Source of the DNA: Mucilaginibacter sp. PPCGB 2223
Lineage (GTDB): Bacteria > Bacteroidota > Bacteroidia > Sphingobacteriales > Sphingobacteriaceae
NCBI RefSeq assembly: GCF_001705515.1
Contig: NZ_MDJS01000004.1
Span: 434,001 to 498,000 of the forward strand
Reading direction: 5' to 3'
Length of the DNA: 64,000 nucleotides
In this document: positions 4,779 to 25,773 of the stretch, piece after piece
How the letters are laid out: the number at the start of each line of letters is the position of its first letter
Numbering within the stretch: position 1 is the first letter of the stretch
The notes under the pieces: generated by a model
Database searches by the model: none
Told to the model about the DNA's origin: nothing
Seen by the model: only the letters and a program-made list of their open reading frames with translations
Position numbers and translations under genes: made by a program

Positions 4779-5363
4779 TTAATATTGGTTCAAAAGTAAA
4801 AAAACATACAGATAAATCCATATAATATCGATAAAATGCCAAAAAATCGAAGCGAACTCCATTCTGAACAAATTTCGCACCTGGGGTATGTTTTTATAGC
4901 TGCCCGAAAGCGCGTTAAAAATTAAACCGAGGCCCGCTATTATATGCAGCAAATGCATGCCGGTAAATACGTAAATAAAAGATTGCGAAGCGTTTGGGTT
5001 AACAAAGTAAACTCCCATTTTAACCAATACGCTCCAGCCATAAATCTGTATGGCAAAAAAGGCTATGCCTAAAACAGCCGTGAGCCACAAAAACAAGCGT
5101 TGCTTATCGAACTGCAGGCGCTTTGCAGCGCGGCTTGCCATAAACAAAGTAACACTGCTTACCACAATTACCCCGGTGCTGTACATAAAAGCATGGGGCA
5201 AAATAATTTTTATGCCACGGCTGGTACTACCGCCGCTGTATACGATAAAGCCACTGGTTAAGGCCGCAAAAAACATAAATGAGGTAAAAATGAACAACCA
5301 CATATTAAATTTTTTGGGCGCCAGGTTAAGCTTGTCTTTATCTTGTTGTAACTGAGCCATCAT
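4779..5363 (-). CDS. Heme-copper oxidase subunit III family (short form)
   Basis: 194 aa, five predicted transmembrane helices. The GMHLLHIIAGL and FWHFIDIIWIYLY segments are typical of subunit III. It is shorter than its neighbour and probably contributes a second subunit III-like module to the oxidase. Two adjacent ATG codons (5363 and 5360) are possible starts. It lies just after ctaB. Confidence 0.9.
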   Translation of the reverse strand: MMAQLQQDKDKLNLAPKKFNMWLFIFTSFMFFAALTSGFIVYSGGSTSRGIKIILPHAFMYSTGVIVVSSVTLFMASRAAKRLQFDKQRLFLWLTAVLGIAFFAIQIYGWSVLVKMGVYFVNPNASQSFIYVFTGMHLLHIIAGLGLIFNALSGSYKNIPQVRNLFRMEFASIFWHFIDIIWIYLYVFLLLNQY

Positions 5364-5367
5364 TCAA

Positions 5368-6228
5368 CTAAACTTTTCCTAAAAAATTAAACAACAAAAC
5401 TAATTGTACTACCGGCAAAACAAAGAATGAGCAATACATCAATTTTTTTGCCGAAGGTATATCCAACGTCCGCACTAAATTGAACGCAAGGTATAAAAAT
5501 ATTACGCTGCAAACGAGCGATACCCCCCCTATGATCCAACCGCCAAAACCCATGATTGTTGGCAGTAAACTTACGGGCACCCATATCAGGGTAGTGATAA
5601 AGGTGATCACGGCACTCGTTTTATCGCGCTTGCCGGTTGGCAGCAGCCTGAAACCGGCCAGTTTATAATCATCATCCAAAACCCATGCTATGGCCCAGAA
5701 ATGCGGGAACTGCCATACAAACTGGATACCGAACAAAACCAGGGCGATCTTATCGATCTGCGGGTGCGCGGCTACATAGCCGATAAGCGGGGGCAGTGCG
5801 CCGGGTATAGCGCCTACAAATACTGCTATAGGCGATTTACGCTTTAATGGCGTATAAGCAAAAGCGTAAAGCAAAATAGAGAATACCGACAGGTAGCCGG
5901 TGGTAAAATTGAGTTTGCCTAAAACATAAGTGCCCATTATCCCCATAAACAAACCTATTACGAGGCCCTGCCCGGTAGTCATCCGGCCCGAGGGCATTGG
6001 CCTGTCCATGGTACGCTTCATGAGCTTATCCAGGTCTTTTTCGATGATCTCGTTAAAACAATTGGCCGCACCGGTAACTAAAAAGCCGCCTAAGATCAAT
6101 AACCCCCAGTTTCCCCAATCGATAACCCCGTTCACTTTGCTGCCGATAAGGAAAGATATCGATGCCGAAAATACCACGAGGAATGTCAGCCTGAATTTGA
6201 TCAGTTTCGAAAAATCGCTCATCTTCAT
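5368..6228 (-). CDS. ctaB: Protoheme IX farnesyltransferase (heme O synthase)
   Basis: 286 aa UbiA-family prenyltransferase that farnesylates heme b to heme o. The Asp-rich prenyl-diphosphate site is visible as NCFNEIIEKDLDKLMKRT near residue 60, with MDRPMPSG following, and there are eight or nine membrane helices. The ATG at 6228 overlaps the ctaA stop codon as ATGA, so that start is chosen over a longer TTG reading to 6243. The product feeds CtaA encoded just upstream. Confidence 0.93.
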   Translation of the reverse strand: MKMSDFSKLIKFRLTFLVVFSASISFLIGSKVNGVIDWGNWGLLILGGFLVTGAANCFNEIIEKDLDKLMKRTMDRPMPSGRMTTGQGLVIGLFMGIMGTYVLGKLNFTTGYLSVFSILLYAFAYTPLKRKSPIAVFVGAIPGALPPLIGYVAAHPQIDKIALVLFGIQFVWQFPHFWAIAWVLDDDYKLAGFRLLPTGKRDKTSAVITFITTLIWVPVSLLPTIMGFGGWIIGGVSLVCSVIFLYLAFNLVRTLDIPSAKKLMYCSFFVLPVVQLVLLFNFLGKV

Positions 6229-21964: not shown

Positions 21965-22371
21965 CCCTCCAACCCCCTAAAGGGGGAGTTTGATTTCGGA
22001 TTTGTTTTTTAAGAAGTCATGCTGAACTTGTTTCAGCACCCCATGTACAGAGCGGATTTGCATGGCTTAACTTGTGCCTGGAATGGTATGCTTGCGATAG
22101 CATTCTGGTTCCCGCTCGCCGCCGCGGGAGGGCTCGTCACTTTTTTCTTGATAAAAAAGTAACCAAAAAATCAAGAGAATACGATCCTTCCTCCCGCCCT
22201 GCCGGTTCTTAACGCTTTTTGGGTTGCGGCCCCAAAAAACTAAACCGGCATTCCCGCCAACTCCCGGCCCGGCGTATTCTCAGGCCTGCGCTCCATTCAG
22301 TATTTATTTTATGGAACCGTGCCTGTATTTTTACTGGCGCAAGTTTAAGGGCTGGTGGTGTGAGTTAACTT
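21965..22371. repeat. Intergenic repeat region with a hairpin-plus-CCAAAAA element
   Basis: No gene seen. It holds a ccccctaaaggggg palindrome (about 21970), a catgctgaacttgtttcagc segment (about 22018-22037), and at 22139-22176 a hairpin of acttttttc and its complement followed by accaaaaaatcaaga. The last element resembles the hairpin inside copy A (20315-20345). Confidence 0.5.
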
Positions 22372-22507
22372 GTGCCTGAGGTTGATTAGCCTGTCGGAGA
22401 GGCACACGCGGCACGCGTGCGCCAGCATGGGGGGTGGGTTAACGTGCCTGAGGTTGATTAACCTGTCGAAGAGGCACACGCGGCACGCGTGCGCCAGCAT
22501 GGGGGGT
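22372..22507. repeat. Two 64-bp direct repeats
   Basis: Units at 22372-22435 and 22444-22507, 72 bp apart, differ at about three positions. Each begins gtgcctgaggttgatta and ends gccagcatggggggt. Each contains a GC-rich near-palindrome with 10-bp arms (ggcacacgcg and cgcgtgcgcc). They end just before the GIY-YIG gene stop. Confidence 0.8.
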
Positions 22508-22515
22508 ACGATTTA

Positions 22516-22812
22516 TCAATCATACCAACCCTCACTAAGATCTCTCCATTCGGGATTTTCCTTAATGATCAAATCTATCTTCTTCTGTCTCGAACCCGCC
22601 TTGAGTTGTTTTTCTCGTGCTATCGCATCATCTATCCATTGATATGTCTGGTAATAAACCAGCTTATTGCATTGATATTTTTTTGTAAAACCATTATTTA
22701 CACCAGTTTTATGTTGTAATACTCTATTTTTTACATCGTTGGTAACTCCGATGTATAATACAGAATCGTTTTTATTAGCGAGGATATAAACATAATACTG
22801 GTGCAATTTCAT
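22516..22812 (-). CDS. GIY-YIG domain protein
   Basis: 98 aa, a single-domain GIY-YIG nuclease-fold protein of the UPF0213/YhbQ-like size class. The signature is YYVYILANKNDSVLYIGVT, followed by an Arg in the KNRVLQHK helix and a late Glu (AREKQLKAGSR). Such stand-alone proteins are common and often multicopy in Bacteroidota. Function is unknown and may be a structure-specific nuclease. It is surrounded by intergenic repeats. Confidence 0.85.
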   Translation of the reverse strand: MKLHQYYVYILANKNDSVLYIGVTNDVKNRVLQHKTGVNNGFTKKYQCNKLVYYQTYQWIDDAIAREKQLKAGSRQKKIDLIIKENPEWRDLSEGWYD

Positions 22813-22866
22813 TTTGCAATATATTTATTATCATCGTGCTTTTTGTAAAACGACTAAATTATCCTC

Positions 22867-22978
22867 ATGTCATTGCGAGGCACGAAGCAATCCCTGAGGA
22901 CAAGCGAGTTTGCTAATCATGTTTGCAACTGTCCTCGGAGATTGCCGCGCTATCGCTCGCAATGACATGGCGTAGAGG
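22867..22978. repeat. TGTCATTGCGAG inverted-repeat element
   Basis: About 112 bp with near-identical outer arms atgtcattgcgag (22867-22879) and ctcgcaatgacat (22966-22978). Similar elements lie at 23963-24094 and 25734-25773. They are non-coding and probably fold as one long hairpin when transcribed. Confidence 0.7.
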
Positions 22979-23034
22979 TTAGGCTTGGGGTTGATAACCG
23001 TGTTAGCCGCTGTAAACGGTGTAACTACTTTTAT

Positions 23035-23052
23035 TTTGGTTAACAGGGTTAA
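23035..23052 (+). repeat. Left arm of inverted repeat framing the DUF4393 gene
   Basis: TTTGGTTAACAGGGTTAA, 18 bp, is the exact reverse complement of 23906-23923. It lies 57 nt before the DUF4393 start. Confidence 0.75.
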
Positions 23053-23109
23053 CAGAATATATATATATATCATTTATAATATCTTAATTTGGATATAAAT
23101 TAAGGATAT

Positions 23110-23871
23110 ATGGGCGAGAAACATTTGAATATTAAATCATCCACCATTGAGAAAGGTTTAGACTTAGCCAAAAGTTTTTTAGAAAAACTTATTTTCCCTA
23201 CTATAGAAGAGGTTGGGTTATTAATAGCTGACAATATCAAATTATTCAGGTACAAAAATCAAATTAAGATATTATTGAAAGCTGAAAAGTATGTAGCCGA
23301 TAATAATATAAAAATTAAGGAAATACCAACAAAAATCCTCGTTCCGTTATTAGAAAATGCTTCCTTAGAAGATAATGAAGATTTGCAGGATAAATGGGCA
23401 AAGATGATAGCGAATATGGCTGACTCTGACAGCAACCTGCAAAATCAGATTTTTCCGTATATCTTAAGTCAAATATCCATTAATGAATATAATGAACTTA
23501 AGGAATTATCATTAGGAGAATACAAATTTAAGTTATTGAGGAATGATTATAGTCGATTAATTAGAAAGGACAAATACGGAAATGCATATGACACCCAAGT
23601 CCTGCGTCAAGACATAAATAAAATAGAACAAGAGGGTTTTGATTTAAATTTGGTAGAATACGAAGCAGCAAATCTCATTAGACTTGGCTTAGTCAAACAA
23701 CTACCCCCTACAATAATTATTGACGAATTTAAAACAGGGGGAGAAAATGTGCCACTTTTTGATGAACAGTGGCATATGATTGGTGCTCAGTATGATCAAG
23801 ATGACAATGGTTATAGAATAACAGAGCTTGGCGAGAGGTTTCTGCAAATTTGTGAGATTAGCAAAAAGTAA
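23110..23871 (+). CDS. DUF4393 (Abi-alpha type) protein
   Basis: 253 aa. The order of features fits DUF4393/Abi-alpha: an amphipathic N-terminal helix region (LEKLIFPTIEEVGLLIADNI), then IPTKILVPLLENASLEDNEDLQDKWAKMIANM, then a winged-helix-like C-terminal half. Members have been linked to abortive phage infection, but that is family knowledge, not shown here. The gene is markedly AT-rich compared with its neighbours, which suggests transfer. It is enclosed by an 18-bp inverted repeat and, further out, by TGTCATTGCGAG elements. Confidence 0.8.
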   Translation: MGEKHLNIKSSTIEKGLDLAKSFLEKLIFPTIEEVGLLIADNIKLFRYKNQIKILLKAEKYVADNNIKIKEIPTKILVPLLENASLEDNEDLQDKWAKMIANMADSDSNLQNQIFPYILSQISINEYNELKELSLGEYKFKLLRNDYSRLIRKDKYGNAYDTQVLRQDINKIEQEGFDLNLVEYEAANLIRLGLVKQLPPTIIIDEFKTGGENVPLFDEQWHMIGAQYDQDDNGYRITELGERFLQICEISKK

Positions 23872-23905
23872 ATGCAGTAACGTGTTTACAGTTTGTTAAC
23901 TACTT

Positions 23906-23923
23906 TTAACCCTGTTAACCAAA
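23906..23923 (-). repeat. Right arm of inverted repeat framing the DUF4393 gene
   Basis: TTAACCCTGTTAACCAAA, the exact reverse complement of 23035-23052, begins 34 nt after the DUF4393 stop codon. Confidence 0.75.
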
Positions 23924-23962
23924 TTCAAAACAGTTAACAGCATTTACAATTCACAGCACAAG

Positions 23963-24094
23963 GGATTGTCCTGAGAGATTGCTTCGTGCCTCGCAATGAC
24001 ATGATGGACACGGGGTTTGCTGCATAGCCGTTCTGCAAATCGGGGATTGCTTTACCGAAACAAGTTCGGCACAGGCTGTGCCTCGCAATGACAC
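23963..24094. repeat. TGTCATTGCGAG-family element, right of DUF4393
   Basis: It contains gattgcttcgtgcctcgcaatgacat (23978-24003, given here in part as a family match) and a second cctcgcaatgacac at 24081-24094. It is oriented opposite to the left arm of the element at 22867. The remaining sequence up to 24385 holds no gene. Confidence 0.6.
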
Positions 24095-24385
24095 AAAGTA
24101 GAATATCTATATTCCGTCTTAAAACTGTGAGACAATTTTGGGTGGGGTGTTTTGTAAATTTATGGCTTGCAGTGAGTAAGTGGTTGTTGGTGACAACACC
24201 AACAACGGCGCGGTGGGTAAGTCAATGCCTGGCTATCGTACTTTCCTGCAAGGCTTCTTTTAATTAGTCCATGGTCGCCGGACCGTGGAGTTTGACGTTT
24301 CCTGATACTTCATTTTGCTATCGACCATGGTCCATCGACTATGGACTTCCCTCCTTTCGTAAACTCTAATCCCAATAATACTATT

Positions 24386-25309
24386 ATGGAACCTATTATT
24401 TTAACTCCCAAACAGCAAAAATTTTGTGATGAATATCTGATTGATATGAACGCTACCAAGGCGGCTTTGCGGGCCGGGTATAGTGCAGGCACGGCGCTCA
24501 ACGGGCAGCTGATGCAGATACCTAAGATCCGTTATTATTTACAGCAGCGTACCGAAGAGGTGAGCCGCAAAACACAGATCAGCCACGAACAGGTTCTGGC
24601 CGAGCTGGGTAAGATCGCCTTTGCCAATATGCGCAACTATTACCATAGCGATGGCCGCCTGAAGGGGGCGCATGAGCTGACGGATGATGAGGCGGCGGCG
24701 CTATGGTGCATGAAGGTGACGGACGGTAAGGACGGGCAATCGTCGTTCATCAGGCTGGCCAGCAAGCTTTCGGCGCTGGAAAAAATTGCCAGGCACCTGC
24801 GGTTTTACGAACCTGAGGAGCAACAGCCCGAAAAGGTGTTTGTATACCTCGACCCGAAAACGCTCGACAATTACGATACTTTTGATGATGAGCTGTTTAA
24901 CCGCCTTGATTACGAGAACGCTTATTACGACGCCGACCATAAAGATTACTACCATTGGGATACCGAATGCAAGGTTGCCGTGGCGCAGGCCCGGGCGGCA
25001 TGCAGGCTGCGGAGAGCTGAGGTTGTTAGCCCTGAGCCTGGAGTCGATAGCCATGAGTTGGGAAGTGAGGAGGAAGAAGTGGCGGTGGCGGGAGAAAAAG
25101 TCGGGAGCCTGGAGCCGGGAGCAGGAAGCCTGGAGCAGGAAGCTTTTTTTGAAAGCCCGACGGACGGGGCTTTACCGATGACGGAAGGACCGGCAGCAGC
25201 GACTGGCGGGGAACGGGCCGGCGGGGTGATTGATTTTGGTTCGGGCAAGAAAGGGAGCTGTAAGGTACCGCTTATGATGGGGAATAGCCGGGAGTACAGA
25301 TATGATTGA
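24386..25309 (+). CDS. Terminase small subunit-like protein, orphan
   Basis: 307 aa from the ATG at 24386; an upstream ATG at 24341 is possible but gives a non-conserved extension. The N-terminal LTPKQQKFCDEYLIDMNATKAALRAGY and TAL...QLMQIPKIRYYLQQR match the terminase small subunit (Terminase_2) HTH domain, which recognises phage DNA for packaging. No large terminase, portal or capsid gene lies nearby. The C-terminal 90 residues are low complexity (many Glu, Gly, Ser) and read like a translated intergenic repeat. Confidence 0.72.
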   Translation: MEPIILTPKQQKFCDEYLIDMNATKAALRAGYSAGTALNGQLMQIPKIRYYLQQRTEEVSRKTQISHEQVLAELGKIAFANMRNYYHSDGRLKGAHELTDDEAAALWCMKVTDGKDGQSSFIRLASKLSALEKIARHLRFYEPEEQQPEKVFVYLDPKTLDNYDTFDDELFNRLDYENAYYDADHKDYYHWDTECKVAVAQARAACRLRRAEVVSPEPGVDSHELGSEEEEVAVAGEKVGSLEPGAGSLEQEAFFESPTDGALPMTEGPAAATGGERAGGVIDFGSGKKGSCKVPLMMGNSREYRYD

Positions 25310-25733: not shown

Positions 25734-25773
25734 TTGTCCTAAGTAGAGATTGCTTCGTGCCTCGCAATGACAT
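25734..25773. repeat. TGTCATTGCGAG-family fragment
   Basis: gattgcttcgtgcctcgcaa followed by tgacatg, the same half-element as at 23978-24003. The rest of 25656-25820 shows nothing coding. Confidence 0.55.

Follow-up and report, generated by a model that had tools for sequence, protein, structure and literature searches.

A 64,000-nt stretch of the 5.48-Mb genome of Mucilaginibacter sp. PPCGB 2223 (referred to here as the window) contains an Abi_alpha (DUF4393) gene that is surrounded by two layers of inverted repeats. This arrangement raises the question of whether the gene and both layers form one cassette, possibly a non-autonomous mobile unit carrying a defense gene, as an earlier note on this sequence proposed, or whether elements of different origin adjoin. 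We consider the latter likely: a foreign Abi_alpha unit with its own inverted repeat probably lies next to members of an unrelated hairpin family that is linked to GIY-YIG genes.

The locus comprises a D15-like gene (named by eye; Pfam gave no match), a stand-alone GIY-YIG protein gene on the minus strand (22516–22812), the Abi_alpha gene on the plus strand (23110–23871) and a terminase-small-subunit-like gene (24341–25309), with RNase G bounding the other side. The terminase-like gene (PF03592, 104 bits) adjoins the Abi_alpha gene, stands alone and is possibly a prophage remnant. A separate dispersed repeat family occupies 22110–22300, and pieces of it, up to 94% identical, were found by DNA search in many genomes of the genus.

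The Abi_alpha Gene and Its Inner Inverted Repeat

The open reading frame of the Abi_alpha gene encodes 253 aa and matches the Pfam profile PF14337 (Abi_alpha/DUF4393) over residues 46–248 with 93.1 bits against a gathering cut-off of 29 (E 2.9e-26), which bears out the family assignment previously made from the letters alone. The match to the PADLOC model PDC-S47 is weak (E 6.5e-6), and NCBIfam holds no model for Abi_alpha/DUF4393. The gene had also been described as AT-rich, and its GC content is indeed 32.3% (about 31% for the unit) as opposed to 46.9% for the whole window and 52–53% for the neighboring genes. A homologue is present in 10 of 149 genomes of the genus, own copy counted, and the other nine are at most 52% identical; the locus is not fixed among relatives. 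The closest proteins found in a collection of 84,980 species belong to Daejeonella, Dokdonia and Aquimarina (56–60% identity). Due to this sporadic distribution in the genus, the nearest relatives in other genera and the foreign GC content, the gene was probably acquired horizontally. Searches outside chromosomes identified homologues on one plasmid (a weak match), in three Vibrio phage records and in three viral contigs. Small phage-type elements of Vibrio cyclitrophicus (PQ189387, PQ189294, and PQ189339; 8.6–10.9 kb) carry a homologue that covers 92% of the query at 28% identity.

The window gene adds an unremarkable new member to an established defense family. Like Abi-alpha (EF2833) of prophage 6 in Enterococcus faecalis V583, it belongs to DUF4393/PF14337 and is a putative single-gene defense. 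In contrast to EF2833, it is chromosomal, lies outside any recognized prophage, possesses inverted repeats of its own and is known from its sequence, the two being related via the family profile only. Early lysis and an abortive-infection phenotype are described for Abi_alpha of the Enterococcus prophage 6 (PMC6356687). By analogy with this namesake, the window protein would be an abortive-infection protein which kills or prematurely lyses infected cells.

The gene is flanked by a perfect 18-bp inverted repeat at 23035–23052 and 23906–23923, located exactly where the earlier note had placed it. This repeat is the core of a longer, gapped inverted repeat of 46 columns with a left arm at 23011–23055 (plus strand) and a right arm at 23903–23948 (minus strand). 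Its score of 50 was reached by none of 5000 dinucleotide-shuffled versions of these flanks, in which the maximum was 36, and the gene therefore lies between terminal inverted repeats beyond chance, as looked for in MITEs or mobile insertion cassettes. A direct recurrence of short flanking sequences had been reported as well. The 12-mer TAACTACTTTTA does recur at 23022 and 23897; however, its score of 24 was attained in 31 of 5000 shuffles and the repeat lies partly inside the inverted arms. As a candidate attachment core, TAACTACTTTTA was rejected, with 77 matches in the own genome (at most one mismatch) against 96 for the reversed control. An imperfect palindrome at 23868–23947 (plus strand) overlaps the stop codon, includes the right arm and has an 8-bp outer stem formed by GTAAATGC and GCATTTAC. 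As single-stranded DNA it folds with −12.9 kcal/mol, a value that none of 200 shuffles matched; its z is −3.24, compared with −1.1 for the left arm.

As a pair the arms are genuine, but they do not form a repeat family. In the own genome, the 18-bp arm has no further exact copy and one extra match at two mismatches. Allowing up to one mismatch, 3 of the 149 genus genomes besides the own one contain a match, one each, as opposed to six matches for the reversed control. Two exact single matches in viral contigs are unrepeated, lie in apparently coding sequence and are apparently due to chance. A mobile repeat family was accordingly rejected for the arm, and neither further copies nor an autonomous relative with such ends were found in the own genome, the genus or the viral contigs. 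The suggested search for the arm with different cargo came back empty in the own genome and at control level in the genus; by the same counts, the arms are not frequent unpaired repeats. Since there is no second copy in the genome and matches in the genus are at chance level, there is no sign that the arms mobilise anything. No transposase lies between them, as had been stated, and no target-site duplication around them is evident by eye. Among 11 other Abi_alpha loci of the genus, no exact inverted repeats of this kind (at least 12 bp) were found. Furthermore, of 20 stretches from relatives downstream of RNase G, 19 were informative (the remaining one, L091, has only 260 bases), and in these RNase G was found and no D15-like, GIY-YIG, Abi_alpha or terminase-small-subunit gene. 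An empty site of the Abi_alpha unit can therefore not be defined.

The arms might instead serve regulation, either as GTTAAC-type operator arrays or as folded transcript ends. Within each arm, a 9-mer of the type GGTTAACAG that includes the 6-bp palindrome GTTAAC is repeated in tandem, and the right arm folds. This explanation appears rather unlikely to us, as an arm homology of 46 columns exceeds what an operator needs, Rfam gives no match and no terminator is predicted within the arms (one terminator-like site in the region, equal to the shuffle mean of 1.0). It is still less likely that the inner repeats are recombination sites by which the gene is flipped in phase variation. A perfect 18-bp core in opposite orientation is one geometry found at invertible segments in Bacteroidota, and the left arm is situated between the divergent GIY-YIG and Abi_alpha genes; however, the arms enclose the whole gene and not a promoter, the segment contains no recombinase gene, and a family of such sites is absent elsewhere in the genome. 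In the mechanism we propose, Abi_alpha would be a single-gene unit that was acquired horizontally and parked in a repeat-rich intergenic region within its own imperfect inverted repeat. The chances seem about even that the 46-column arms served as the ends of the unit when it was brought in by a trans-acting recombinase or transposase.

Other Abi_alpha homologues were inspected for repeats as well. Of 61 loci, 57 were tested (L192, L205, L207, and L208 were dropped for a short flank or a partial gene), and in 12 of the 57, direct or inverted repeats beside the gene outscored their own shuffles; 8 loci reached a score of at least 45. The controls gave three direct and one inverted repeat in 96 neighbor genes and one direct and no inverted repeat in 58 genus genes, these being the members with sufficiently long flanks of control sets of up to 120 random open reading frames each. 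A Dokdonia homologue (L150) lies between 66-bp direct repeats (4855–4920 and 5745–5810) which are 95% identical and palindromic themselves, and 25 bp of the upstream gene’s end are repeated beyond the homologue. A second Abi_alpha gene of the genus, from a lichen MAG (L158) and among the 11 other genus loci mentioned above, has gapped inverted ends of the TTTGTCATTC type at 4875–4904 and 5912–5944.

In five further loci (L156, L187, L189, L196, and L209, from Psychroserpens, Aequorivita, Jejuia, Chryseobacterium, and Thiothrix), the homologues are part of gene arrays separated by a repeated element, which look integron-like. Chromosomal integron cassettes are stores of phage-defense genes, and such repeat-separated arrays with Abi_alpha genes resemble them. 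The window gene could likewise be an integron-type cassette with attC-like sites, a reading to which these arrays of genes and repeated elements lend some support, as does the palindrome over the stop codon, which lies where an attC would sit. Yet there is no array in the window, and an integrase above the curated TIGR02249 cut-off is found in 0 of the 149 genus genomes. Weaker integrase matches in the genus are presumably other tyrosine recombinases; control genomes give them too. The attC core motifs (consensus RYYYAAC/GTTRRRY) are absent as a pair, judged by eye. Without an integron integrase above the cut-off in the genus, integron arrays do not explain the window, and we regard this origin as highly improbable.

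The Outer Repeats

Outside the inner arms, the earlier note had recognized elements in opposing orientation. These are not simply two opposing elements, as the span (22867–24094) contains four exact TGTCATTGCGAG ends, at 22868 (plus strand) and at 22956, 23990, and 24082 (minus strand), with a fifth at 25761. The left two are the ends of one complete hairpin (22866–22969; DNA fold z −6.5). On the right lies half a hairpin (23955–24004, minus strand) whose partner half is missing, and a further TGTCATTGCGAGGCAC end is located at 24078–24093 (minus strand).

The TGTCATTGCGAG 12-mer has 31 exact copies in the own genome and its reversed control has none. In many cases two ends point inward at a distance of 70–140 bp and form a hairpin; other copies are remnants with a single end. 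A total of 67 ends and about 22 hairpins were counted, very weak or duplicate rows being left out. The outer repeats are hence dispersed, many-copy intergenic hairpins, as looked for in a REP-type element. Because the left element makes up a full hairpin, only half of one lies on the right, and exact copies occur genome-wide, the outer “second layer” consists of two members of a dispersed family and does not represent the outer ends of a cassette.

A single composite mobile cassette, in which both repeat layers are the ends and the Abi_alpha gene moves as a unit, would account for the nested geometry, for the foreign composition of the gene and for the 86% complementarity of the outer left and right halves over 50 bp. 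It is nevertheless very unlikely, given that the left outer element is already a hairpin by itself and that the outer repeats accompany GIY-YIG genes genus-wide. Moreover, apart from the hairpins, no adjacent inward pair within 5 kb among the 67 ends of the own genome encloses a gene. The half hairpin on the right starts 6 bp past the end of the inner arm, and our guess would be that the Abi_alpha unit may have settled inside a hairpin loop and that this hairpin lost its left half.

The idea of a cassette or non-autonomous mobile unit is therefore retained in part. A foreign and sporadic gene of a defense family, significant inverted repeats and the lack of a transposase agree with it; in the genomes and viral contigs searched, the arms occur without other cargo, and the outer repeats belong to the GIY-YIG-linked family. 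For Abi_alpha between its inner arms, a mobile unit is neither refuted nor shown.

Association of the Hairpins With a Small GIY-YIG Gene

The gene at 22516–22812 encodes a 98-aa protein matching PF01541 (E 4.7e-17; 62.5 bits). It is intact and 77% identical to its nearest relative, and the GIY-YIG residues Y9, Y20, R30, E67, and N86, which we take to be of the catalytic type, are invariant in nine aligned sequences. A DNA search with positions 22000–24340 returned many loci because of this gene. All 16 fetched loci with a match to the GIY-YIG protein carry repeat ends, nearly all of them near the gene, whereas control loci totalling 199 kb contain three ends. A protein search identified homologues in all 149 genomes of the genus. 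Of these, 90 loci from the best-scoring part of the longer list, with a few rows of that part absent, were divided into 61 close and 29 distant homologues at 115 bits, a threshold set after the list was seen; L271, L275, and L277 among the distant loci match only partially, over no more than 77 residues, and are perhaps misfiled.

Among the close homologues, taken from the best-scoring loci, a TGTCATT.CGA end lies within 400 bp of the gene in 60 of 61. Ends are found on both sides in 48 loci, and in 41 each side has an inward-facing end no more than 200 bp away. Near the close genes, 186 ends were counted in 48.8 kb, compared with 36 in the remaining 129 kb of those loci. In 27 of the 41 loci a single hairpin encloses the gene in its loop, and at every one of these 27 the pairing of the arms exceeds that of all 100 shuffles. 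At L213 (1280–1870), the gene in the hairpin loop was traced base by base. Distant homologues are flanked by inverted repeats in 24 of 28 loci (the 29 minus L271), many of which start with CGTCATTGCGAG.

The first base of the hairpin follows the GIY-YIG subfamily. The 61 close loci comprise 55 with T only, none with C only and 3 with both, as opposed to 3, 16, and 1, respectively, of the 29 distant loci. When the 90 loci were collapsed to 61 distinct sites, the close homologues accounted for 32 T and 0 C sites and the distant ones for 3 T and 15 C sites (Fisher 3.6e-10 for 32:0 vs. 3:15), and 3 close and 8 distant sites showed no T- or C-type GTCATTGCGAG majority within 250 bp. The background in 600 kb of three genomes consists of 48 T and 29 C ends.

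For the GIY-YIG gene of the window, only the 5′ side bears a hairpin, and the other arm appears to have been lost. Just past the 3′ end of the gene, a perfect 36-bp direct repeat (22400–22435 and 22472–22507; 72 bp from start to start) occupies the place where the second arm would be expected. Another copy in the own genome (C2:869041) matches residues 1–73 only and also has its hairpin on the 5′ side. In the genome G099 (L112 and L230), hairpin ends carrying TGTCATTGCGA-type motifs form a tandem array directly beside a GIY-YIG gene. The Abi_alpha unit of the window sits just beyond the hairpin of the GIY-YIG gene, and no GIY-YIG match was obtained in the 64 Abi_alpha homologue loci examined, some of them from the genus itself.

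Comparison of related genomes shows how the hairpins vary in position and content. At the site orthologous to L213, G032 and G053 have the hairpin with the gene, G090 has the hairpin alone, and G015, G025, and G026 have other repeats. Hairpins of G053, G032, and G015 are mostly at shared positions, with a few missing or replaced, so their spread is old or slow. The 34 comparisons in which both flanks could be placed (200 kb of each of these three genomes) contain no clean empty hairpin site. These comparisons reveal hairpins with and without the gene but no insertion.

In our proposal, the autonomous form would be a hairpin whose loop holds a small GIY-YIG nuclease gene, and hairpins devoid of the gene would be non-autonomous, MITE- or REP-like copies. 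The linkage of gene and hairpin, the position in the loop, the complementary arms and the match of subfamily to end are features of the loci themselves; that the GIY-YIG nuclease recognizes the hairpin and drives its spread is what we infer. Tentatively, and with slightly less than even confidence, we suggest that the TGTCATTGCGAG and CGTCATTGCGAG hairpins are a class of bacterial mobile elements driven by a minimal GIY-YIG nuclease. Such a class would comprise an autonomous hairpin unit of about 450 bp whose loop contains the nuclease gene, and short gene-less hairpins spreading in trans; each nuclease subfamily would recognize hairpins by a terminal base of their own, and Abi_alpha would be foreign cargo which settled in this repeat-rich gap.

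Known Systems and Implications

In proteobacteria, REP elements are intergenic hairpins scattered over the genome and partnered by a single gene, that of the RAYT (Y1 HUH) transposase. The outer repeats resemble them in being dispersed and intergenic and in having a single-gene partner in their midst; here, however, the partner is a 98-aa GIY-YIG protein whose gene is often inside the loop of one hairpin, whereas a Y1 transposase would lie beside one. MITEs and mobile insertion cassettes are non-autonomous units which share the ends of an autonomous one. The window resembles these in that a gene lies between inverted repeats without a transposase, but no autonomous partner of the inner arms turned up in any data set searched, and the outer hairpins are partnered by the GIY-YIG gene. 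In our reading, the outer repeats are a family similar to REPs and MITEs, with a GIY-YIG nuclease encoded by its autonomous form. To our knowledge, the GIY-YIG family is not known as a bacterial transposition enzyme. A literature search on GIY-YIG together with REP, REPIN, MITE or palindromic repeats revealed nothing relevant at the level of titles and abstracts, in a coverage that left out most subscription papers, and a search for the letters of the repeat gave no paper about repeats by title among the matches listed.

If the GIY-YIG gene drives the hairpins, they would constitute a REP/MITE-like system based on a nuclease family not known for transposition. The code between nuclease and hairpin, with T or C as the first base, would then be directly testable in vitro. 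For “nested repeat cassettes” in these genomes, the locus means that hairpins near a gene need not be the ends of that gene’s unit. The GIY-YIG hairpin family appears to be the more interesting element compared with the Abi_alpha unit and is worth pursuing.
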